Assembly (NCBI RefSeq): GCF_000425045.1
Contig: NZ_AULA01000002.1
Span: 1 to 64,000, forward strand
DNA length: 64,000 nt
DNA from: Acidaminococcus intestini DSM 21505
GTDB taxonomy: Bacteria; Bacillota; Negativicutes; Acidaminococcales; Acidaminococcaceae
Direction of reading: 5' to 3'
In this document: piece after piece, positions 39,228 to 51,245 of the stretch
Position numbering within the stretch: position 1 is the first letter of the stretch
Layout: each line of letters begins with the position of its first letter
Notes under the pieces: model-generated
Seen by the model: only the letters and a program-made list of their open reading frames with translations
Database searches by the model: none
Told to the model about the DNA's origin: nothing
Position numbers and translations under genes: made by a program

Positions 39228-40547
39228 TTATTTAAAGGTTGCGTCGGCATAAGCCTTCAGTTCGTCCCTAAAGGCTGGATGAGCGACGGAAATCATGGCA
39301 TAGGCCCTTTCTTTCAAGGTAAGGCCTGTGAGATGGGCCACGCCGTATTCGGTAGCGACATTTTGGATGAGGCCGCGCGGTGCGGAAATGGTACTTCCGG
39401 CAGGAATGGAAGCAAGAATATTGGAATGAAGCTGCCCTTTCTTATCTTTGCGGGCCGAATTGATGCAAATATAACCCGCCCCGCCCGGAGAAAGGAAAGC
39501 CCCTTCGAGAAAGTCCAGCTGGCCGCCCGTACCGGAAAGCTGGCGGGTTCCGACAGATTCAGCATTTTCCTGTCCCATGAGGTCAAGCTGGACACCGCCA
39601 TTGATACTAATGAAGTTTGACAGTTTTTCCATGTTGCGCGGGTTGTGGATATAGTCCACATCGGCAGGATAGAAAAGATCCGGGCGATCGTTCAGCCACT
39701 GATAAAGTTCCGCACTGCCGCTTGCAAGGTTCCATGCGGCAAGACCGGTATTGATTTCCTTCCTGCGACCCGTCAGTTTCCCGGCTTGATAGAGCATCAG
39801 GAAGGCATCGCTGATGGTTCCCGTATGGCAGCCCAGATCTTCCTTATCGGATTTTGCGAGCATCTCGGCAATGGTAAAGGGAACCGTTCCCACACCAAGG
39901 GACAAGGTGGCGCCATTTGGGATTTCATTGACGACATATTCAGCAATCTTGATGTCCGCTTCCGACGGTGTACGGTACTTGTTGGCAGCAAGCGGTGCGT
40001 GTTCCCCTTCGACGATGAGATCAGCGTCGTCAAGGCTCACGCGGTGAGAACCATCCACACCCTGAAGAGTCGGCATGTGTTCATTGACTTCAAATATGAC
40101 GGTCCGGGCTTTTTTCATGATGGTCTTCCAGGCATAGCTGGCAAGACCCAATCCGCAGCAGCCATTTTCATCAGGCTTGGAGACCGGAATGCAGGCGACG
40201 TCAACGGTTAGGTATTCACGGTACATCTGCGGCAAAAGGCGAAGCAACATGGGAGCAAAATGGATCTGTCCAGCCGAGAAGTACTTGCGTTCCGCGTTTC
40301 CCAAATGCCAGCTGTAGTAATCAAAGCTTTCGTGGTCCGGGTCGCATTCAACGACGGCAATGGATGGCCGGTAGACAAGACCGCCGCGGATCTTGACATC
40401 CGTTACGGCCCCCTTTCTTTTAGCAAGGGCGGCATCCATCAGTTCCGGGAAGCCGGAGCCAAAACCAAAATCAACCCAGTCGCCGCTTTTAATGGCTTCT
40501 GCCGCTTTGTCAGCGGTCACAACTTTACTGCGATATTTTTCAAGCAT
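39228..40547 (-). CDS. Acyl-CoA hydrolase/CoA-transferase family protein
   Basis: A 439-residue member of the family that holds 4-hydroxybutyrate CoA-transferase and butyryl-CoA:acetate CoA-transferase. The two-domain plan is clear: N-terminal WVDFGFGSGFPELMDAAL, YREYLTVDVACIPVS, IFEVNEHMPTLQG, then ATLSLGVGTVPFTIAEML and the C-terminal GTGGQLDFLEGAFLSPGGAGYI with SAPRGLIQNVATEYGVAHL. In known enzymes the catalytic Glu lies in a GxHSEMxSD motif; here the same place reads GCHTGTISD, with Gly (codon 39819-39821) instead. It may act differently, transfer a different acyl group or be inactive. It follows a broken nitroreductase by 27 bases. Confidence 0.85.
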   Translation of the reverse strand: MLEKYRSKVVTADKAAEAIKSGDWVDFGFGSGFPELMDAALAKRKGAVTDVKIRGGLVYRPSIAVVECDPDHESFDYYSWHLGNAERKYFSAGQIHFAPMLLRLLPQMYREYLTVDVACIPVSKPDENGCCGLGLASYAWKTIMKKARTVIFEVNEHMPTLQGVDGSHRVSLDDADLIVEGEHAPLAANKYRTPSEADIKIAEYVVNEIPNGATLSLGVGTVPFTIAEMLAKSDKEDLGCHTGTISDAFLMLYQAGKLTGRRKEINTGLAAWNLASGSAELYQWLNDRPDLFYPADVDYIHNPRNMEKLSNFISINGGVQLDLMGQENAESVGTRQLSGTGGQLDFLEGAFLSPGGAGYICINSARKDKKGQLHSNILASIPAGSTISAPRGLIQNVATEYGVAHLTGLTLKERAYAMISVAHPAFRDELKAYADATFK

Positions 40548-40573: not shown

Positions 40574-41067
40574 TTACCTTCTTTCATGGATCCATTCAGG
40601 ATGCCAACGGTCTTCGGCGCTCCGCGTCTTTTGAGGGTGCCCCAAAGCAAAAAGGGCAAAGGCCTCTTCCTTAACAGGAAGGCCAAGGAGTTTTTTTACG
40701 GCAAGGGCTCGCTCGCGTCTTGGATAAACGCCCATCAATGTTCCGCCAAGCCCCAGTTCTGCGGTCTTGAGCCAGAGGTTTTCCGCGGCACAGGAGGCAT
40801 CGATGGGAGCAAATTCAGAAACGATGCAGTCAGTCACATAGGTGATGACAATAAGGACCGGGGCCTTTGCGCCAAATGCCGCGTAGGGGCTGGTATCACA
40901 AAGCGCCTGTTGAAGCTTTTGTCATAAATGACGTAAAACCGCCAAGGCTGCTGGTTGCACGCCGAAGGCGCCAGCATGGCGGCGCGAAGAAGTGCCATCA
41001 CCTGACTTTTGGCCACAGGTTCGTCCGTAAATGCCCGGACACTGGTCCGACTCTCAAAAATGTCCAT
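40574..41067 (-). pseudogene. Nitroreductase-family gene with a frameshift
   Basis: The first part (from the ATG at 41067, after AAGGAG) reads MDIFESRTSVRAFTDEPVAKSQVMALLRAAMLAPSACNQQPWRFYVIYDK, a standard nitroreductase N-terminus. At a run of four A (minus strand; 40917-40920) the frame slips; the next frame continues KLQQALCDTSPYAAFGAKAPV, then SCAAENLWLKTAELGLG and WHPEWIHE. One added A restores the full protein of about 165 residues. The family uses FMN to reduce nitro compounds or quinones. It could be a real mutation, a sequencing error or a switchable run. Confidence 0.85.
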
Positions 41068-41178: not shown

Positions 41179-41526
41179 TTAGACCGTCAGATGGAAGGAA
41201 AAACCTGCAATATCACCATCAAGGTAGATAAAGGTAATCTTTCCTTCTTCATTTCTTCGAATGGTATTTTCTTTGAAGGTGATGCCTTTAGAGGCGAGGT
41301 CTTTCATGGCCGCCTCAACATCATCGGTCTGGAGAGCAATGTGCCCGTGCGTTCCGATCTGGTTATGCTTCATCACTTCAAAAGCCGTGGAAACAAAGGT
41401 ATGGGTATCGTTTTCGTGGCCGGTTTCCATGTTGAAGAGATGGCACAAAAGACTGACAAGCTTTTTGGCCTCGGCCTCATTTTCACAATTGATGCCAACA
41501 TGTTTCAGTCGATAGGTTACTGCCAT
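41179..41526 (-). CDS. VOC (glyoxalase-like) family protein
   Basis: A 115-residue single VOC-type protein: YRLKHVGINCENEAEAKKLVSLLCHLF, then STAFEVMKHNQIGTHGHIALQTDDVEAAMKDL and a C-terminal IYLDGDIAGFSFHLTV. From memory, this pattern (HVGIN..E.EAK, EVMK...G.HGHIAI.T, AIYL..EIGGFA.HL) resembles the C-terminal extension of clostridial 2-keto-3-deoxygluconate-6-phosphate/ketohydroxyglutarate aldolases. In that case it may be a stand-alone partner or metal-binding domain for sugar-acid metabolism. I chose the ATG at 41526 with AGGAGG 9 bases upstream. It follows ilvD by 100 bases. Confidence 0.75.
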   Translation of the reverse strand: MAVTYRLKHVGINCENEAEAKKLVSLLCHLFNMETGHENDTHTFVSTAFEVMKHNQIGTHGHIALQTDDVEAAMKDLASKGITFKENTIRRNEEGKITFIYLDGDIAGFSFHLTV

Positions 41527-41626
41527 GGTGGGCATTCCTCCTCATTTGAGCATAGTCATTGGGCCTTGTCATGACAAGGTACTCCCCTATTGTACCATAG
41601 GCCGTAAGGAAAGTCCCTGATCAAAA

Positions 41627-43321
41627 TCAATCATGGGTATGGAGGATGGCTCCTTTATCCGCAGAAGATACAAGGGCTGAGTATTTCTTAAGGAGCGGAG
41701 ACGTTGCCTTCACAACAGGGGTAAAGTGTTTACGCCGCGCGGCCAGTTCCTCGTCAGAAAGATCCACAGTCAGTGAGCGGTTCGGGATATCGATGTGAAT
41801 GATATCGCCGTCTTCAATAAGGCCAATGGGACCGCCAGCGGCCGCTTCCGGAGAAATATGACCAATGCAGGGCCCACGGGTCGACCCGGAAAAACGCCCG
41901 TCTGTAATAAGGGCCGTGCTTTCATCCATGCCGCGTCCCACAAGAAGGGCCGTGACAAGGAACATTTCCCGCATGCCAGGGCCGCCTTTCGGGCCTTCAT
42001 AGCGCAGGACAATGACTTCGCCAGCATGGATTTCGCCGTTTTCAATGGCCGTAATGGAGTCTTCCATGCTGTTAAAGACGCGGGCCTTGCCCGTGAACTG
42101 GTGCATGGACGGTTTGACACCACTGGCCTTGACGACAGCGCCATCAGGAGCCAGGTTGCCATGGAGGATAGCAATGCCGCCCTGCTTGTTTTTCGGTGCC
42201 GACCGAGGATAAATGACATCATTTTCCACAAGGGGTTGGGCTTCCAGCACTTCCTTGATGGAGTGACCCGTGACCGTGATCTGGGAATCATCAATCTTAT
42301 CCTGGATGGCCTTTAGGACGGCAGGAATACCGCCGTTATCATGGAGCACATCCACAGCATAGGCGCCGGACGGACGCAGGTTGCACAGATAGGGTACCTG
42401 CCGGCTGATCCGGTCAAAGTCATCAAGGGTGATGTCCGCATGGGCTTCATGGGAAATGGCCATCAGATGCAGGACGGAGTTTGTAGAAGCGCCAAGGGCC
42501 ATGACAGCCTTGATGCCATTGAGGAAAGCTTCTTTGGTAAGGATCTTATCCGTGGAAAGGCCTTCTTTAACCATCTTTACGATGCGTTTGCCGCTGGCAC
42601 GGGCAAGGCGCCGTTTTTCCGACGCGACAGCCGGGCAAGTACCCATAAAGGGCAGGGTGAGGCCCAGGACTTCGGCCAAGGCACTCATGGTATTGGCCGT
42701 CCCGAACATGGAGCAGGAACCCACCGTCGGAAGCGATGCCATTTCCATCTTGCGAAGTTCATCATAGGTCATCTTGCCGACCTGATATTCACCGACAAAT
42801 TCGCGCAGGTTGCTCAGGCAGATATTGGTCCTGCCATTGCATTTACCGGCAATCATAGGGCCGCCCGTTACGACAATAGCCGGGATGGACAAGCGGGCTG
42901 CCGCCATCATCATCCCCGGTACAATCTTGTCGCAGCTGGCGATGAGCACGACACCGTCAAGCTGGTTGCCTTCGACAACAGCTTCTACGGAGTCGGCAAT
43001 GATCTCACGGCTCGGCAGGGAGTAGCGCATACCGCAGTGGCCTTGGCAGAGGCCATCGCAAAGGGCAATGGTGTCGAATTCGCGGGGAATCCCGCCGCCT
43101 TCAAGGATACCATCGCTTACATCCCGGGCCAGTTCACGGAGATGGATATGGCCAGGGACGAGTTCACTAAAGGAGTTAGCAATCCCAATCATGGGTTTGC
43201 GGAAATCATCTTCCTCGAGACCCATGCTGTAAAGCAGTGCCCGGTTTCCGCTGCGCCCCACTCCATTGACAAGGATACCGCTTCGCTCGTCCTTGTAACG
43301 CAATTCTTCTTTGTCACTCAT
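41627..43321 (-). CDS. ilvD: Dihydroxy-acid dehydratase family protein (IlvD/Edd)
   Basis: A 564-residue IlvD/Edd-family dehydratase, which uses an iron-sulfur cluster to turn 2,3-dihydroxy acids into 2-keto acids. Motifs include [28 protein letters not shown], the cluster/active-site [23 protein letters not shown], and the C-terminal [22 protein letters not shown]. It could be branched-chain IlvD, but no other ilv gene is nearby; sitting between korDABC and a VOC protein in an aldarate block, it may instead act on a sugar acid. Confidence 0.88.
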
Positions 43322-43404: not shown

Positions 43405-43935
43405 TTACAGTTCAAGGCCTCGCTTGAAGGCCTTTTGGTTCGATTCTACCACTTTCTTCTTGCCGCCGAAACGGTCTTCGATAGCTTTAAGGCAGCCTTC
43501 AGCACCCAAAAGTCCCGTCTTTTTGCTCATGGTTCCCAGGGCAACGAAATTGGCGCTTTGGATACTGCCAAGGGCAATGGCTTCACTGCGATACGGAAAA
43601 CCGATATGTTCACCTTTGGCGCCCGCCTTTGGCGTAACTTCCTCGCTGTCATAAAAGACGATTGTGTCATCACGGAAAGCGTCAACATAACGGTCGTAGG
43701 CAACCTGGGCCAGGCAGAGGATGATATCCGGGGAAGCAACATTCGGATAGCCGATTTCCCCATCGCTTATGATGACATCCGTTTTCGTGAAGGTTCCGCG
43801 AGCTTCGGAACCATAGGACGCCGACATAGTTGCGTTCAGGTTTTCTTCATAAAGGGAAGCTGCAAGACCCATGACTTCGCCAACAGAAACAACCCCTTGT
43901 CCGCCGACACCACTCAAAACGATTTCTTTTTTCAT
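43405..43935 (-). CDS. korC: 2-Oxoacid:ferredoxin oxidoreductase, gamma subunit
   Basis: A 176-residue gamma subunit with the family start EIVLSGVGGQGVVSVGEVMGLA and SYGSEARGTFTKTDVIIS. It is the CoA-linked part of the enzyme that oxidatively decarboxylates 2-oxoacids to acyl-CoA with reduction of ferredoxin. The ATG at 43935 sits three bases after the korB stop, with GAGGA as ribosome site inside the korB end. Closest family is 2-oxoglutarate:ferredoxin oxidoreductase, but other short-chain 2-oxoacids are possible. Confidence 0.88.
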   Translation of the reverse strand: MKKEIVLSGVGGQGVVSVGEVMGLAASLYEENLNATMSASYGSEARGTFTKTDVIISDGEIGYPNVASPDIILCLAQVAYDRYVDAFRDDTIVFYDSEEVTPKAGAKGEHIGFPYRSEAIALGSIQSANFVALGTMSKKTGLLGAEGCLKAIEDRFGGKKKVVESNQKAFKRGLEL

Positions 43936-43937
43936 CT

Positions 43938-44753
43938 TCAATCCTCAACTTTCTGGGCTTCAATGATCCGGGCATATTCCGTATAGTAATCATCCCGCGG
44001 TTCGTTCTTCAGGCAGCCCACAACGAGTTTCCCTTTCAGCTCTTCCGGAGACAGTTTCGCCGCCTGGCTGACGGTGACGCTCTGCTCGTTCATGAGCTTG
44101 AGCATGCGGGAAGCTTCACCTAGTTTATTGAATTTCCCATAGTGGGTCGGGCAGGCACTCATGACTTCAATGAGGGAGAACCCTTTGACCTGCATTCCTT
44201 CCTTGATGAGCTTGCGGATCATGAGGGGGTTATAGGCCGTGGCACGGCCAACGTAGCTGGCTCCTGCGGCAATGGCAAGCTGGCAGATATCAAAAGCCTG
44301 TTCAACATGGCCATAAGGAGAGGTCTGGGTAATGCTGTGGGTCGGCGTCGTGGCGGAATACTGGCCGCCGGTCTGGCCATAGTTATAGTTATTGGAAATG
44401 ATGGCCGTCACATTGATGTTGCGGCGGGCCGCATGGATGAGGTGGTTGCCGCCGATGGTCGTGCCGTCGCCGTCACCCATGGTGACAAGGACATTGAGGT
44501 TCGGATTGCCAAGGGCAACCCCGGTTGCGGCCGCAAGGGCACGGCCGTGCGTCACGTGCATGCAGTTGATGTCCAGGTAGTCATCAACACGGCCAAAGCA
44601 GCCAATCCCGCTGACAAGGGCCATGTCGTGCTTATCCACTTCCAGTTCAGCCATGACAGCGGCAATGGACTGGAGCACAATGCCGTGGCTGCAGCCGGCG
44701 CACCAGGTCTGCGGCAATTTATCAAAGAGCATATAATCCTTGTAGGACTTCAT
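43938..44753 (-). CDS. korB: 2-Oxoacid:ferredoxin oxidoreductase, beta (TPP) subunit
   Basis: A 271-residue beta subunit carrying thiamine diphosphate: WCAGCSHG near residue 17 holds a Cys pair, and the TPP motif is GDGDGTTIGGNHLIHAARRN followed by NYNYGQTGGQYS. It overlaps korA by one base (TAATG). The alpha, beta, gamma and delta chains together form the enzyme. Confidence 0.92.
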   Translation of the reverse strand: MKSYKDYMLFDKLPQTWCAGCSHGIVLQSIAAVMAELEVDKHDMALVSGIGCFGRVDDYLDINCMHVTHGRALAAATGVALGNPNLNVLVTMGDGDGTTIGGNHLIHAARRNINVTAIISNNYNYGQTGGQYSATTPTHSITQTSPYGHVEQAFDICQLAIAAGASYVGRATAYNPLMIRKLIKEGMQVKGFSLIEVMSACPTHYGKFNKLGEASRMLKLMNEQSVTVSQAAKLSPEELKGKLVVGCLKNEPRDDYYTEYARIIEAQKVED

Positions 44754-45901
44754 TATTCCCGACCTCCTTTAACAGCGCTTACAACTTCCTCCGGGGTAAT
44801 GAGGACGCCATCGGTGCGGTTTGCTTGAACAACCCTGGCACCATAGTCATTGTATTTGCGGACTTCACCAGCCAGCTGACCCATGTTGAGTTCGGCAACG
44901 ACAACGGTCTTTGCCTGCTGAAGGGCTTTGCGGATGGCTTTTTCCGGCATGGGCCACACGGTTACAAGCTGCAGCATCCCTGCTTTGACGCCTTCCTTAC
45001 GGAGCAGATCGACGGCTGTACGGGAGCTGCGGACAGAGCAGCCAAAGGAGATGATGACCGTATCTGCATCTTCCATCTGATATTCACGGGTGATGGTGAT
45101 ATCATCAGTATGATTTTCAATCTTATCAATGAGATAATGGGTTACGCGGTTAATATTTTCCGGCGTCGGTCTGAATTCACCTTTTTCATCATGGGTGGAA
45201 CCCGTCGTTCTCATAAGGAGGTCTCGGTCTCCGGCACCAACCATGGGAGCGGGCACATCGGAGGAATAGTCATAGGGATGGAAGTCTTTTTGAGCCGTTC
45301 CCTTTGCAGGCGCTTTGCGGTCAATGATTTCTTCCGGTTCCGGTTTGCGGATGCGGACCGTTTCACGGAGGTGGCCAATGACTTCATCAGCCAAGAAAAT
45401 GACCGGCGTGCGATATTTCTCAGCAAGGTTGAACGCCGTAATGGAAAGATCATAGCAATCCTGGACGGAAGACGGAGCCAGGGCAATGATGCTGTGATCC
45501 CCATGGGTCCCATAGCGGGCCTGCATGAGGTCCCCTTGGGCCGGTTTCGTGGCAGCCCCCGTCGAAGGACCGCTGCGCTGTACATCATAAACGACGCAGG
45601 GCAGTTCACTCATGACAGCAAGGCCGAGGTTTTCCTGCATCAGGGAGAAGCCAGGACCGCTGGTTGCCGTAAAGGCTTTCTTCCCAGCAAGGGAAGCCCC
45701 GCACAGGGCAGCCATGGAGCTGATTTCATCTTCCATTTGGATATAGACACCGCCGTGACGGGGCAGTTCCTTGGCAGCTCCCTTAGCGACTTCCGAACTC
45801 GGGGAAATCGGATAGCCCGCATAGAAACGAGCACCGGCAGCGATGGCGCCGGCCACCATGGCATCATTGCCTTCCATAAATTTCTTGACAGTTTTTCCCA
45901 T
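44753..45901 (-). CDS. korA: 2-Oxoacid:ferredoxin oxidoreductase, alpha subunit
   Basis: A 382-residue alpha subunit with the pyrimidine-binding side of the TPP site: ARFYAGYPISPSSEVAKG, SGPGFSLMQE and DVQRSGPSTGAATKPAQGD, and the late CSVRSSRTAV. Its start is directly after the delta-subunit stop. Order D-A-B-C is the usual operon order for the 2-oxoglutarate enzyme. Confidence 0.92.
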   Translation of the reverse strand: MGKTVKKFMEGNDAMVAGAIAAGARFYAGYPISPSSEVAKGAAKELPRHGGVYIQMEDEISSMAALCGASLAGKKAFTATSGPGFSLMQENLGLAVMSELPCVVYDVQRSGPSTGAATKPAQGDLMQARYGTHGDHSIIALAPSSVQDCYDLSITAFNLAEKYRTPVIFLADEVIGHLRETVRIRKPEPEEIIDRKAPAKGTAQKDFHPYDYSSDVPAPMVGAGDRDLLMRTTGSTHDEKGEFRPTPENINRVTHYLIDKIENHTDDITITREYQMEDADTVIISFGCSVRSSRTAVDLLRKEGVKAGMLQLVTVWPMPEKAIRKALQQAKTVVVAELNMGQLAGEVRKYNDYGARVVQANRTDGVLITPEEVVSAVKGGRE

Positions 45902-46099
45902 TTACTTTCCCTCCACATCAATAGCAAAGTCCGGGCAACGCATGGCGCACATCTTGCAGCCAATGCATACGTCAGCACGCGCGGCAACAGGCGGTTTGCC
46001 TACTTCCTGATCAAAGACCTGTTTCGGACACAGGGCAGAGCAGATTCCGCATTGCTTGCAGAACTTTGTGTTGATCTTGATGAGAAACTTTCCTTCCAT
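45902..46099 (-). CDS. korD: 2-Oxoacid:ferredoxin oxidoreductase, delta (2x4Fe-4S) subunit
   Basis: A 65-residue ferredoxin-like chain with two CxxCxxCxxxCP clusters: CKQCGICSALCP and CIGCKMCAMRCP. It passes electrons from the TPP site to free ferredoxin. I chose the ATG at 46099, 6 bases after GGAGGG; the ATG at 46105 touches that site. Confidence 0.92.
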   Translation of the reverse strand: MEGKFLIKINTKFCKQCGICSALCPKQVFDQEVGKPPVAARADVCIGCKMCAMRCPDFAIDVEGK

Positions 46100-46155: not shown

Positions 46156-47112
46156 TCAGCGGGTCGGATGATTGATGATATAAAGCGGCTCTTTACCAGA
46201 AAAGAGATCATCAATGGCATGAGCACAATTCATGGCAACCGCAGTAACAGCTTCTTCACTAAGGGCCGCTGTATGCGGCGTCCCGATGAAGTTTGGCAGT
46301 GCAAAAAGTGGATTGTCCGGCGTCGGCGGTTCCGTTTCAAAAACGTCTCCGGCCGCGGCTCCGATCCGTCCCTCCTGCAAAGCCTGATAGACAGCTTTTT
46401 CATCCCAGATGGCACCGCGGGAAACATTCAGGAGTATACCGCCGCGTTTCATATGGGAAATACTCTCTTCATTTAGGATATGGAACGTTCCCTTGTTAAG
46501 GGGCAGATGGGGCGATACCACATCGCTGCGCTCCATCAGGTCGTCCAAGGTGTTCGTAAATTCGATCCAATCCGGGAACTTCGACTGGTCCACAAATTTA
46601 TCATAGACAAGGATCTTCATCTGAAACCCAAAATGAGCAATCTTGACGGCCTCCATACCAATGGGCCCAATGCCAATAGAACCAAAGACCTTGCCGCGGG
46701 CTTCGTGAGTTTCTACACGGTCACGGCTCTTCCAATCCCCTTTGCGGACTTCCCGGTCAAGCTGTGAAATCTGGCGCAGGGCGGCGAGCATGAGCGTAAT
46801 GGCATGCTCAGCCACGGAATAGGTGTTGCACCCACGGGCGAGCGTCACGGTAACGCCTTTTTTGTCGCAGGCCTCAAGATTGATGTTTTCGTAGCCAATG
46901 CCGTAACGGGCAATGATCTTGAGGTTCCTAGCGGCTTTAATGACAGCAGGTGTATATTTTTCCGTACGGGCAATGACGGCATCAACGTCGCTGATTGCCT
47001 TTTTCATGGTTTCTTCATCCGTGCCTTGAAGTTCGACGAGTTCATAGCCTTTATCCGTAAGGAACGTACGCGCCGACTCTTTCAGGGCTTTTGGAATCAA
47101 GATCTTATACAT
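46156..47112 (-). CDS. D-2-hydroxyacid dehydrogenase
   Basis: A 318-residue NAD-dependent dehydrogenase of the phosphoglycerate/hydroxypyruvate dehydrogenase group. The glycine loop GSIGIGPIGMEAVKIAHFGFQMKILVYD ends in the acidic residue typical for NAD use. The active-site Arg, Glu and His are visible in NVSRGAIWDE, GDVFETEPP and GTPHTAAL. It could reduce tartronate semialdehyde or hydroxypyruvate formed in aldarate breakdown, or another 2-keto acid. It lies between the GntP permease and korD. Confidence 0.88.
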   Translation of the reverse strand: MYKILIPKALKESARTFLTDKGYELVELQGTDEETMKKAISDVDAVIARTEKYTPAVIKAARNLKIIARYGIGYENINLEACDKKGVTVTLARGCNTYSVAEHAITLMLAALRQISQLDREVRKGDWKSRDRVETHEARGKVFGSIGIGPIGMEAVKIAHFGFQMKILVYDKFVDQSKFPDWIEFTNTLDDLMERSDVVSPHLPLNKGTFHILNEESISHMKRGGILLNVSRGAIWDEKAVYQALQEGRIGAAAGDVFETEPPTPDNPLFALPNFIGTPHTAALSEEAVTAVAMNCAHAIDDLFSGKEPLYIINHPTR

Positions 47113-47175: not shown

Positions 47176-48591
47176 TTACAGAAAGAACTGGATGACGAGC
47201 AGCTCTACAAGCCCCACACCCGCCATGATCATGGAAACAGCCGTTTTGCAGGCAAGCTGTTCCTTAAGGTCAGAAACACCAAACATCCCGTTCCATACCC
47301 AGAATCCGGAATCCGTAAAATAGCCGAAGGAAATGGCACCGACGCAGCAGCTCATGGCCATAAGCAGCGGGCTGATGGTCAGCTGGCCCATAAGCGGCAT
47401 GGTCAGCGAAGCCGCCGTGACGATGGCAACCGTGGCAGAGCCCAGGACAATTCGCATCAGGGCTGCAATGCAAAAGGGAATGAGGACAGCCGGAATGGGA
47501 AGTCCCACAACCATCTTACCGAGGACACTGCCAATACCAGAAGCACGGACAACATAGCCCAGGGAGCCGCCCACACCCGTAATGAGCATGATGAGCCCTG
47601 TATCCTTGATGCCTTCATTCATGATATCAAGGACTTCCTTGGTCTTTCGCTCCGGCATCAATCCATAGATGGCGATCAGGCAGCCAATCATCAGCGCCAC
47701 GATAGGACTCCCAAATAGAGCCAGGGCCGGATAATAAGCAGCTGCCTTATCGACGCCAGCAAGGTCAAGAACGGTCTTTAAGAGGATCAGGAAGAGTGGA
47801 ACCACAATCGGCGCTGCGGAAATCCAGAAACCGGGCAGGTCGTCCCGATTCAGGAACTGGTCCAAAAGATCCGTTGATGCCCGTTTCACGTCGCCATCTT
47901 TACTGGGGCGAACATATTCATCGTCCTCATTGACGACTTGATAGATTTTCTTTCCAATCCACATGCAATACGGTACGACCACAATCAGCATGGGAATCGT
48001 CAAGAGCGCACCGCCGGCAATCATCTGACCAACGTCAACGCCAAGCATGCCCGCCGCCGTCAAAGGTCCTGGGGTGGGCGGTACAAGGACGTGGGTCAGC
48101 TGGAGCCCGCAGGCAAGGGCTAGTCCCAAGCCGATGACGGATTTGCCCGTCACCTTGGAAATGGCCTTGCAGAGCGGGCAGAGCATAACGACAGCCGAGT
48201 CAGCAAAAACTGGAATGGAAACCACCCAGCCCGTTACGCCTAGGGCCCATTCTTCATTGCCCTTGCCTACGGCCTTGATGAAGCTTACAGCAAGACGTTC
48301 GGCTGCGCCGGATTTTTCCAGAATGGCGCCCATCATGACGCCAAGGCCAATGATGATGCCCGTGCTTGACAGGGTGTTGCCAAAGCCCGTGGTAATGGCA
48401 TTGATGACACCAACGATGGTCTTTCCATCAGCTGCTTTGACGGTCACGATCGGCATGCCGCCGATAATGCCTGTAATCAGGGCAGCTAAGAGCATTGCAA
48501 TGAAACTATGGACCTTGGTTTTGGCAACCAAGATGATCATGGTTATGATGCCAAGGCTTAAGCCCAGGAGCATCCGTGTAGATTCTGCCAT
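47176..48591 (-). CDS. GntP family permease (gluconate/sugar-acid type)
   Basis: A 471-residue membrane transporter with about 13 hydrophobic segments. It shows the GntP-family features: TKVHSFIAMLLAALITGIIGGMP at the start, GLGVMMGAILEKSGAAERLA, ALACGLQLTHVLVPPTPGPLTAAG, and near the end GYFTDSGFWVWNGMFGVSDLKEQL. Members import gluconate and related acids with protons. Next to gudD, glucarate (or galactarate) is the likely substrate. The ATG at 48591 has GAGGGAG 8 bases upstream. Confidence 0.9.
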   Translation of the reverse strand: MAESTRMLLGLSLGIITMIILVAKTKVHSFIAMLLAALITGIIGGMPIVTVKAADGKTIVGVINAITTGFGNTLSSTGIIIGLGVMMGAILEKSGAAERLAVSFIKAVGKGNEEWALGVTGWVVSIPVFADSAVVMLCPLCKAISKVTGKSVIGLGLALACGLQLTHVLVPPTPGPLTAAGMLGVDVGQMIAGGALLTIPMLIVVVPYCMWIGKKIYQVVNEDDEYVRPSKDGDVKRASTDLLDQFLNRDDLPGFWISAAPIVVPLFLILLKTVLDLAGVDKAAAYYPALALFGSPIVALMIGCLIAIYGLMPERKTKEVLDIMNEGIKDTGLIMLITGVGGSLGYVVRASGIGSVLGKMVVGLPIPAVLIPFCIAALMRIVLGSATVAIVTAASLTMPLMGQLTISPLLMAMSCCVGAISFGYFTDSGFWVWNGMFGVSDLKEQLACKTAVSMIMAGVGLVELLVIQFFL

Positions 48592-48633
48592 TTTTTGAAA
48601 CTCCCTCACATATTTTCTTTTTTACTTGGATGA

Positions 48634-48697: not shown

Positions 48698-50026
48698 TCA
48701 GCGAACAAGGCACGGAGACTTGGCATCAAATTTCCAGCCCGGAATCAGGTACTGCATGGTGATGGCGTCATTGCGAGCGCCCAAGCAATGTTTCTTGTAA
48801 AGTTCATGGGCTTTCATCACCTGGTCACGGTCGATTTCAACGCCCAGGCCCGGTTTATCCGGGACCTTGATCCCGCCGTTCGCAATCTTGAGCGGCTCCT
48901 TGGTCAAGCGTTCACGACCTTCCTGCCAGATCCAGTGCGTATCCAGGGCATTGTATTCACCCGGTACGGCAGCACCGACATGGACGCACATGGCAAGGGA
49001 AATATCGAAGTGGTTGTTGGAGTGGCTGCCCCAGGTATAGCCGAATTCGTGGCACATTTGGGCCACACGGACGGAACCATTCATGGTCCAGAAATGGGGA
49101 TCAGCAAGGATAATGTCGACCGCTTGGCTTTCCAGGGAGTGACCGACTTGACGCCAATCCGTAGCAATCATGTTCGTTGCCGTCGGAAAACCAGTGCGGC
49201 GGCGGAATTCGCTCATGATTTCGCGGCCGGAATAACCGTCTTCGGCTCCGCAGGGATCTTCACAGTAGGTCAATATGCCGTGCATATCCGCTACATAGCG
49301 GACGGCATCATCAAGATGCCAAGCGCCGTTGGGATCAAGGTCCATACGGGCATCAGGGAAAGCCTTCTTCATGGCTTTGATGACTTTCATCTCTTCGTCA
49401 CCGCGCAGGACTCCGCCTTTTAGTTTGAAATCCTTGAAACCATATTTATTCTTGGCGGCTTTGCACAAGGCCACAACATGTTCGGCATCGATGGCTTCTT
49501 CATTGCGGAGACGATACCATTCGCAGTCGGAATCTTCTTCGGACTGATAAGGCAGATCAGTTTTCTTACGGTCGCCAACAAAGAACAGGTAACCCAGGAA
49601 GCGGACAAAATCACGTTGCTGACCGGCGCCAAGAAGACGGCAGACCGGCATATCGAGTGCTTTGCCCAAAAGGTCAAGGCAAGGAGCCTCAATGGCCGTC
49701 AGGACGTGGACACCTGTACGAAGGTCGAAGGTCTGGGCGCCGCGTTCATCCTTTTCACCGCTCTTATCAAGTTCAGCCTGGACCTTAAGAAGCGTATTGC
49801 GGTAATCCGAGACTTTCGTCCCTACAACAATATCGCTCACATTTTCAAGGGCTGTCGTGATCTTGGGCCCTCCCGGAACTTCCCCTACCCCTGTATTGCC
49901 TTCGCTGTCCGTCAGAATTACGATGTTGCGGGTAAAGTATGGGGCATGACCTCCGCTGAGATTGAGCAGCATGCTGTCGTGACCGGCAACAGGATATACT
50001 TCCATTTTGGTAATCACAGGAACCAT
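48698..50026 (-). CDS. gudD: Glucarate dehydratase GudD
   Basis: GudD is an enolase-superfamily enzyme that dehydrates D-glucarate to 5-dehydro-4-deoxy-D-glucarate. The 442-residue protein shows [22 protein letters not shown], the acid/base lysine stretch [14 protein letters not shown], metal ligands in MDLDPNGAW (about 235-243), the glutamate in YCEDPCG, and the late [14 protein letters not shown] with the catalytic His. Length is normal. It is transcribed leftward from a promoter overlapping that of the divergent LysR gene, which is likely its activator. Confidence 0.94.
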
Positions 50027-50186: not shown

Positions 50187-50303
50187 GAAATTCTAATTAA
50201 AAGTTAACCTAATTTCTAAAAAAGAGCCTACCCTGCATGAAACGATACATGTCGGCAGCTCTCCCCTTTTTAAAGGCGGGCATACGTGCCCAAGGAGGCA
50301 TCC

Positions 50304-51245
50304 ATGGACCTAAAACAGATTGAATACATTGTCAAGATTGCAGAAACGGGGAATATCACACGGGCAGCCGAGCAACTTTTTGTGACCCAGTCCGCCCTCA
50401 ACCAGCAGCTTCTCAAACTGGAAAATGCCTTGGGCATCAAGCTGTTTTACCGCAGAAAGCACGACCTTACGCCAACGGATGCAGGAAAGGTCTATCTAAA
50501 ATATGGCCGGCAGATGCTCATTGAAAAAAGGGAAGCCTACAACATCATCAACGACCTTGCTCAAGACAACTTAGGCCATCTTTCCTTTACCTTTTCTCGG
50601 GAGCGCGGCCTTGATATGTTTGTTGCCACATACCCTGCCTTCCACCGTCAGTTTCCCGGCATCATCGTGGAGCCTCACGAAATGCGCGTCCATAACCAGC
50701 AGCTCCAGATTGCCCAAGGCTATGTTGACCTGGGACTTGTCACGCTTTCGGAGCAGCAGAAACTGGCCGATCTGCAGTATGACCACATCCGCTATGAGCC
50801 CCTGCTCCTGTGCCTGCCGCGGAAGCATCCCCTGGCCAAGGACGCGGCGCCTGTAGGGACCTATTTGGAAGACCTTCCCTATATGGACCTATCAGCAATC
50901 AAGGAGCTGCCCTTTGTGCTCATCTACAAGGAATCGACCATGCGAAGCCTCATCAACCGGATCCTCGGGGCAGCTAAGATCTGTCCCTATGTCCTTTTTG
51001 AATCAGGCAGCATCCGCGCCCTGTTAAAGATCGTGGCAAGCGGTCTTGCCTGTACCATCACCTCGGCGGGCTATATCCGCGGCAAGGACGATGTGGCGTT
51101 TTACCGAATTCCCGGCGATCCCTTGTGGGAAATGTGTACGGTCCACAAAAAAGATACCTACGTCAGCAAGGCCATGGCCTGCTATAAAGAGCTGATTGTT
51201 AGGTATTTCACTGAAAAAGACCCGCTCCTGACAAATCAAAAGTAA
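50304..51245 (+). CDS. LysR-family transcriptional regulator
   Basis: A 313-residue LysR regulator: N-terminal winged helix MDLKQIEYIVKIAETGNITRAAEQLFVTQSALNQQLLKLE in two parts, with the co-inducer domain after residue 90 (LGHLSFTFSRERGLDMF, YVDLGLVTLSE). The ATG at 50304 has AAGGAGG 5 bases upstream. It is divergent from gudD and shares its promoter region, so it is likely the glucarate/aldarate-responsive regulator of that operon. Stop at 51245. Confidence 0.88.
   Translation: MDLKQIEYIVKIAETGNITRAAEQLFVTQSALNQQLLKLENALGIKLFYRRKHDLTPTDAGKVYLKYGRQMLIEKREAYNIINDLAQDNLGHLSFTFSRERGLDMFVATYPAFHRQFPGIIVEPHEMRVHNQQLQIAQGYVDLGLVTLSEQQKLADLQYDHIRYEPLLLCLPRKHPLAKDAAPVGTYLEDLPYMDLSAIKELPFVLIYKESTMRSLINRILGAAKICPYVLFESGSIRALLKIVASGLACTITSAGYIRGKDDVAFYRIPGDPLWEMCTVHKKDTYVSKAMACYKELIVRYFTEKDPLLTNQK

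Follow-up and report, generated by a model that had tools for sequence, protein, structure and literature searches.

Glycine and histidine replace the catalytic glutamate and its asparagine partner in a conserved clade of family I CoA-transferase homologues from Acidaminococcus and two Lachnospiraceae MAGs

Introduction

Family I CoA-transferases are defined by a catalytic glutamate, which forms an acyl-glutamyl anhydride and a CoA thioester. In AarC this residue is Glu294, which is polarised and oriented by Asn347, 53 residues further on (PMC4876117). That a member of the family can do without the glutamate is already known from ThnP, which was described in 2024 as an intramolecular CoA-transferase of anaerobic naphthalene degradation in culture N47 and for which an internal anhydride is proposed as one possibility (PMC11659651).

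Here we analyse a gene of Acidaminococcus intestini DSM 21505 that lies in a stretch of 64,000 nucleotides (contig NZ_AULA01000002.1, positions 1 to 64,000; henceforth the window) and that specifies a family I homologue in which the catalytic glutamate is replaced. What this locus adds to the ThnP precedent is a separate clade, a coupled Gly/His pair together with its recurrence in a distant group, and a predicted pathway. A literature search that was thin on subscription journals found no published account of the clade, of the Gly/His pair or of glucarate feeding 2-hydroxyglutaryl-CoA.

Results

The gene is an open frame of 439 codons with no internal stop (Table 1). Its product contains both acetyl-CoA hydrolase/transferase domains (PF02550 and PF13336), and the top NCBIfam model is that for butyryl-CoA:acetate CoA-transferase (TIGR03948), which it matches at 385.3 bits, below the cut-off of 674.8. 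An AlphaFold2 model built from 14 sequences (pLDDT 88.8, pTM 0.88) superimposes on 2oas with a Z score of 51.5 (rmsd 1.9 Å, 422 residues aligned), on 3gk7 with a Z score of 50.6 (rmsd 1.7, 430 residues) and on 4eu3 with a Z score of 36.5. The protein has the two-domain Cat1/4HB-CoAT fold and the Pfam domains of family I. The same genome carries a second copy of the family that is 40% identical to the window protein and has an intact HTEM motif.

Table 1. Coordinates of the features in the window and, where a locus handle is given, in other genomes
Feature	Position	Strand	Basis
Family I (Cat1) CoA-transferase homologue lacking the catalytic Glu, 439 aa (feature under study)	39228..40547	-	open frame; Pfam, NCBIfam, AF2, structure match
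Glu327 codon, candidate replacement carboxylate	39567..39569	-	column comparison
His301 codon, position of AarC Asn347 / ScpC Asn339 (orients catalytic Glu)	39645..39647	-	alignment columns
Gly243 codon, place of catalytic Glu	39819..39821	-	codon reading and alignments
Small protein, weakly methylmalonyl-CoA epimerase-like (VOC fold?)	41179..41535	-	no Pfam/NCBIfam match; PDB E 0.04; conserved neighbour
IlvD/EDD-type dehydratase, paralogue distinct from the genome's other ilvD copies	41627..43321	-	TIGR00110, 708.2 > 618.15
2-oxoacid:ferredoxin oxidoreductase gamma subunit	43405..43941	-	NF006323, 124 bits, below cut-off
2-oxoacid:ferredoxin oxidoreductase beta subunit (best match 2-oxoglutarate type)	43938..44753	-	NF007207, 278.4 bits, cut-off 364
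2-oxoacid:acceptor oxidoreductase alpha subunit	44753..45901	-	NF006412, 513.5 > 411
Small protein carrying two CxxCxxC motifs, taken as the ferredoxin (delta) subunit	45902..46099	-	sequence; conserved position
D-2-hydroxyacid dehydrogenase (phosphoglycerate dehydrogenase-like)	46156..47112	-	homology searches
GntP-family permease	47176..48609	-	TIGR00791, 284.7 bits, cut-off 292.75
Glucarate dehydratase-like enolase-superfamily protein (GudD)	48698..50026	-	TIGR03247, 733.2 bits, 441/441 positions, cut-off 828.7
LysR-type regulator, divergent	50286..51245	+	homology search; conserved position
Second Glu-less group, five Acidaminococcus	L106:11978-13312, L107:4509-5843, L105:3969-5264, L104:3778-5070, L111:3710-5002		
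Alternative CoA-transferase setting with TRAP transporter, two Acidaminococcus	L047:7830-17830, L041:7286-17102		

The initial annotation had noticed that the motif of the protein reads GCHTGTISD, with glycine at the expected place of the catalytic glutamate, and this was borne out. The motif spans residues 239 to 247, and codon 243 is GGA (TCC on the plus strand). The annotation had proposed a structure-based alignment with 4-hydroxybutyrate CoA-transferase; sequence alignments set Gly243 opposite the catalytic glutamate. With HMMER it falls on the glutamate that belongs to the HTEM/HSEM motif of the solved enzymes 3eh7, 3gk7, 9vag and 3d3u, and with MAFFT on Glu286 of E. coli ScpC. The annotation had also suggested collecting homologues with HTGT at this place, and we found 11 distinct ones, from nine Acidaminococcus genomes and two Lachnospiraceae MAGs (metagenome-assembled genomes), all of which read GCHTGT(I/L)SD, with GGA, GGT, GGC and GGG all in use at the glycine codon. 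We compared 78 distinct full-length relatives (100 if identical rows are counted separately), leaving out rows that contain stops or span fewer than about 380 query residues. Of the 78, 64 have Glu at this column and 14 have Gly, the latter comprising the 11 members of the window clade and three proteins of a separate second group. The replacement of the catalytic glutamate by glycine in the window gene is therefore certain. Two further readings of the motif were considered and set aside: Cys240 as nucleophile, since Cys is also found there in Glu-type relatives (GCHSEM, GCHTEM, GCQTEM), and RipA as a natural precedent, since the aligned entry, 4n8k, is named as an E249A mutant and its Ala is engineered.

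The loss of the glutamate is coupled to a second change. Residue 301 corresponds to ScpC Asn339, 53 residues past ScpC Glu286; it is His in all 11 members of the window clade and Asn in 57 of the 57 Glu-type rows with at least 37% identity. Among the seven more distant Glu-type rows, six, including L035_4262, have Asn, and L020 has Leu with Asn in the next column (L035_4262 and L020, both on long branches, were left out before residues were counted in the tree set). The Asn-to-His change makes sense because, once the glutamate is gone, nothing is left for the asparagine to orient. The glycine of the external oxyanion hole is kept in 10/10 clade members of the tree, Gly342 aligning with ScpC Gly380, which corresponds to AarC Gly388; for both His301 and Gly342 the AarC equivalence rests on equal spacing via ScpC and not on direct alignment. 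Glu400 is likewise retained in all aligned members of the clade. The gating loop motif QxGhG has Ser (eight proteins) or Gly (two) in place of Gln in 10/10 clade members, while Gln is found in 38/38 Glu-type representatives. Other residues that are fixed throughout the clade but scarce or missing among the Glu-type proteins include Glu35, Arg169, Phe224, Glu327, Arg366, Asn376 and His405; at the column of Glu327, which is present in 11/11 clade members, no acidic residue occurs among the 38 Glu-type representatives.

When the 59 genomes of the family were searched, an orthologue with 72–100% identity and no stops was found in each of the nine genomes of the genus, and two rumen MAGs labelled Lachnospiraceae carry orthologues with 62–63% identity. 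Larger draws, of 398 genomes from the Bacillota and 250 from the class, yielded no further clade member at E<=1e-110. Within them the clade scores 891–930 bits and the next match 472.5 bits or lower, and those of the next-best loci that were retrieved, 39–45% identical, all have the catalytic glutamate. The motif pattern used below on the Desulfobacterota side, which is blind to HTGT itself (Thr244 lies outside it), gave four matches in the 398 Bacillota, none of them a transferase. Estimates of dN/dS (NG86) are 0.05–0.10 between the window gene and its relatives and 0.08–0.12 among three near relatives; the values for the window gene are rough, its dS mostly exceeding 2. The gene is under purifying selection. 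In a tree of the family the window clade has a support of 100 and a stem of 0.84, and very likely the gene belongs to a functional clade rather than being in decay. The suggestion of the initial annotation that the rest of the protein is intact and the gene not dead holds good, given its 439 unbroken codons and low dN/dS, and the degeneration in sister strains that would have spoken against it was not seen, the gene being intact in 9/9 Acidaminococcus genomes. Of its further proposal, a new subfamily with another mechanism or substrate, the subfamily stands (clade support, long stem, conservation throughout the genus, low dN/dS and a normal fold); we infer that altered chemistry in the clade is likely. 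The other circumstance that the annotation named as counting against its proposal, a different glutamate in the catalytic role, may apply, with Glu327 as the candidate.

In the window the CoA-transferase gene is the last gene of a minus-strand glucarate/galactarate cluster (Table 1). The part of the cluster that encodes the oxidoreductase and the IlvD-type dehydratase adjoins the CoA-transferase gene in seven of the nine Acidaminococcus genomes (G000, G001, G002, G004, G005, G007 and G008), and the small VOC-like gene adjoins it in most cluster-bearing genomes. A hexarate dehydratase gene is whole in five of these genomes, encoding GudD in G000, G001, G004 and G008 and GarD in G005; in G002 and G007 GudD is cut by the contig end. 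In G005 GudD and GntP are replaced by a galactarate dehydratase, which reaches 724.8 bits with TIGR03248 (cut-off 730.85), and by a TctC receptor; the GudD and GarD scores both lie below the equivalog cut-offs. Glucarate and galactarate dehydratases both yield 5-keto-4-deoxyglucarate (PMC11775122). No orthologue of the window IlvD was found in 397 genomes outside Acidaminococcus at E<=1e-200, nor in G003 and G006, where the only copies are 45–50% identical. The window also contains what reads as a nitroreductase-like gene (40577-41067, minus strand), flanked by the CoA-transferase gene on one side and the small VOC-like gene on the other; its frame is broken near 40900, possibly by a real frameshift or by an assembly error.

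The remaining genomes show other settings. In G003 and G006 the CoA-transferase gene does not adjoin the hexarate cluster; its neighbours encode an Fe-alcohol dehydrogenase and a TRAP transporter that are 68–79% identical between the two genomes; an acylating aldehyde dehydrogenase is also present in the G003 setting, and G006 alone has a (2S)-3-sulfopropanediol dehydratase nearby. In the Lachnospiraceae MAG G060 the CoA-transferase gene lies 413 bp past hgdB, at the end of a complete run consisting of decarboxylase subunits, gctA, gctB, gcdA, hgdC, hgdA and hgdB, in which gctB, gcdA and hgdB are assigned by resemblance to known sequences and by gene order. In the other MAG, G059 (L048:8911-12913), it is divergent from genes for an FAD-linked oxidase and an ETF subunit, a pair that is perhaps a 2-hydroxyacid dehydrogenase system. 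An HgdA orthologue is present in 9/9 Acidaminococcus genomes and in G060, and none was found in G059 at E<=1e-60.

Five Acidaminococcus genomes (G001–G004 and G008) carry a second Glu-less paralogue, with the motif GIH(S/T)G, that is 28–34% identical to the window protein; none was found in G000, G005, G006 or G007 at E<=1e-30. This second group keeps Asn at column 301 and has Ala for the external oxyanion glycine in 5/5. In all five genomes hgdB is no more than about 2 kb away from this gene. The two genes share a strand in G002, at a distance of 2.0 kb, and in G003 and G004, where the paralogue follows hgdB after roughly 100 bp; in G001 and G008 they are convergent. The tree test speaks against a joint clade of the second group with that of the window protein (AU p = 0.033).

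Glu-less relatives also occur outside this clade and genus. We ran the pattern G-x-H-[S/T]-G-x-x-[S/T]-D, which is blind to residue 301, on 395 genomes from the phylum of a Syntrophaceae MAG (Desulfobacterota-side) and obtained 17 matches, against one for the reversed control. Twelve of the 17 are family I CoA-transferases, and a representative (L136) matches the P. gingivalis enzyme 3eh7 with 353.7 bits; the matches L115, L116, L117, L120 and L128 were discarded as not being transferases. Column 301 is His in 10 of the 12 transferases (L112, L113, L114 and L121–L127). The other two, L118 and L119, have Ala there and lack the glycines of the GxG loop as well as those of the GGQ loop; they seem to be either non-catalytic or quite unlike the rest. 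Seven of the 12 have a Glu exactly 31 residues past the Gly, the same spacing as between G238 and E269 of ThnP, and judged by this spacing to the published ThnP positions they are probably ThnP-like. The ten proteins with the (Gly,His) pair form a group with a support of 98, and Glu-type rows separate them from the window clade; a tree constrained to unite the two is worse by 45.7 log units (AU p = 0.051). Two origins of the pair are favoured, but a single one keeps some probability at this AU value. No common substrate could be read from the neighbours of these genes in eight of 14 stretches, which include one CitE-like lyase (L134) and one PrpF (L131).

Discussion

The reading that we prefer, with a probability of roughly 0.4, is that the window enzyme moves CoA intramolecularly on a short dicarboxylate without an enzyme nucleophile, the substrate most likely being 2-hydroxyglutaryl-CoA, with transfer from C5 to C1; 2-hydroxyglutaryl-CoA as the exact substrate is a lead. 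Ping-pong chemistry would have been given up while the family I fold was kept working. The free carboxylate of the substrate would attack the thioester of the same molecule to form a cyclic anhydride, the CoA thiolate would remain bound and reopen the anhydride ring at the other carbonyl, and His301 would steady charge where Glu and Asn formerly acted. With an internal anhydride on the substrate the glutamate nucleophile would be unneeded, and the asparagine that orients it would have changed along with it. The anhydride of a five-carbon diacid would be a six-membered ring, as for the 1,5-diacid of ThnP.

If an IlvD-type dehydratase attacked 5-dehydro-4-deoxyglucarate at its dihydroxy end, the product would be 2,5-dioxoadipate, and the 2-hydroxyglutaryl-CoA dehydratase of the glutamate pathway requires CoA on C1, next to the hydroxyl. 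In the predicted pathway GudD would convert glucarate to 5-dehydro-4-deoxyglucarate, the IlvD-like dehydratase would yield 2,5-dioxoadipate, the hydroxyacid dehydrogenase would reduce this to 2-hydroxy-5-oxoadipate, and the ferredoxin oxidoreductase would produce 2-hydroxyglutaryl-5-CoA and CO2. With CoA then shifted from C5 to C1, the glutamate-pathway dehydratase would receive its 1-CoA ester and the thioester would be conserved. Within the hydroxyglutarate pathway such an activity would also salvage 5-CoA esters, a possible reason why the CoA-transferase gene lies beside hgdB in G060.

Several lines of evidence point to the intramolecular shift. ThnP, the only Glu-less family I enzyme with experimental characterisation that we found, is an intramolecular CoA-transferase acting on a 1,5-dicarboxylic acid (PMC11659651). 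The pair (Gly,His) is coupled in 11/11 members of the clade and in 10/12 proteins elsewhere, against (Glu,Asn) in 57/57 Glu-type rows, and the external oxyanion glycine (Gly342) and Glu400 are kept. With regard to context, the oxidoreductase/IlvD cluster in 7/9 Acidaminococcus genomes, the position 413 bp past hgdB in G060, the second Glu-less group near hgdB in 5/5 and the HgdA orthologue in 9/9 Acidaminococcus genomes and G060 are all consistent with it. Against the 2-hydroxyglutarate part, G059 carries the gene without hgdA, and the G003/G006 setting does not point there and is left unexplained by the proposal; against the glucarate/galactarate route, GudD and GarD score under the equivalog cut-offs. 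The mechanism need not match that of ThnP, as the alternative acid of ThnP, E269 (G238+31), is Leu274 here. Nor need intramolecular transfer entail loss of the nucleophile, since Mct, a family III enzyme that also transfers CoA intramolecularly, still has its catalytic Asp (PMC9813914). Taken as a whole, the wider proposal, that family I gave rise more than once to nucleophile-less 'CoA-ester isomerases' marked by Gly/His for Glu/Asn and that one of them in Acidaminococcus is a 2-hydroxyglutaryl-CoA C5-to-C1 isomerase completing an undescribed glucarate/galactarate route into the hydroxyglutarate-to-butyrate pathway, is doubtful.

A different use of the remodelled site would be intermolecular transfer with a relocated nucleophile, either Glu327 or His301 as an acyl-imidazole, that takes CoA from the acyl-CoA produced by the neighbouring enzymes and passes it to an acid such as acetate. 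Glu327, which could be a new nucleophile and as such also speaks against the intramolecular shift, is the one position that has the same acid throughout the clade (11/11) and no acid in any of the 38 Glu-type representatives, and an enzyme that makes acyl-CoA (a 2-oxoacid oxidoreductase or an acylating aldehyde dehydrogenase) is nearby in every Acidaminococcus context but that of G006. ThnP too has a possible stand-in Glu (E269), and 7/12 of the Desulfobacterota-side Glu-less proteins have Glu there. However, the Glu327 column holds Ile, Val or Phe in the 12 other Glu-less proteins and so falls outside the shared pattern, and we regard intermolecular transfer as somewhat unlikely. Less probable is an acyl-CoA hydrolase, in which His301 would activate water and split the acyl-CoA made by the cluster, for example to protect the CoA pool. 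A His beside the oxyanion hole would suit a general base, and a Glu-to-Asp mutant of glutaconate CoA-transferase is reportedly a case of a CoA-transferase turned hydrolase. That active-site Glu mutants of family I can become hydrolases is also indicated by the title of PDB entry 9cq2, 'CtfAB E46D active site mutant hydrolase'. Hydrolysis would nonetheless squander a thioester where thioesters sustain the fermentation, and ThnP, the only natural Glu-less enzyme tested, is a transferase (PMC11659651), which makes this reading quite unlikely.

We consider it very unlikely that the protein is a pseudoenzyme that binds acyl-CoA without turnover, as a sensor or as a partner of another enzyme. The residue held to be essential is lost, and inactive AarC-E294A still binds CoA and closes (PMC4876117), yet invariant polar residues (His301, Glu327, Arg366, Asn376 and His405) have reshaped the site, which is not decaying, and the external oxyanion hole is retained. 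A sequencing error or degenerate gene, which came to mind when attention was first drawn by a single codon, is refuted by Gly in 11/11 orthologues through four different codons, by dN/dS of 0.05–0.12 and by the lack of stops; its probability is negligible.

The clade is significant as a conserved branch without the residue by which its family is defined. The Gly/His pair, recurring as it does in a distant group, may serve as a sequence signature for an alternative chemistry of the kind that the ThnP authors proposed without an experimental structure. Such a signature would correct automatic annotation as butyryl-CoA:acetate CoA-transferase, a marker of butyrate production in gut surveys, and the intramolecular shift that we favour would offer a predicted route by which Acidaminococcus of the gut could ferment glucarate and galactarate.

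Compared with ThnP, the window protein shares the family I/Cat1 fold and the Gly at the catalytic Glu, and the 1,5-dicarboxylic acid that is the ThnP substrate has its counterpart in 2-hydroxyglutarate, itself a 1,5-dicarboxylic acid. Unlike ThnP, with E269 at +31 from its Gly, the window clade has Leu274 in 10/10, and we rejected E269 as a general stand-in acid for this want of conservation; the seven Glu-less proteins that have the +31 Glu of ThnP branch apart from the window clade. ThnP also keeps QxGhG (PMC11659651), whereas Gln is Ser or Gly in the window clade. The Firmicutes butyryl-CoA:acetate CoA-transferases (TIGR03948) are the nearest Glu-type relatives by sequence (about 39–45% identity) and in the tree, but the window protein falls well short of their model's cut-off and both the catalytic Glu and its Asn partner are replaced. 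Mct resembles the window enzyme in the proposed kind of reaction, the movement of CoA within one dicarboxylate, but belongs to the unrelated family III and has its catalytic Asp in place. The solved family I structures (3gk7 and 4eu3) have in common with the window protein the fold, the GGQ loop and the external oxyanion Gly, and differ from it in that the equivalents of Glu238/Glu294 and Asn347 are Gly243 and His301.
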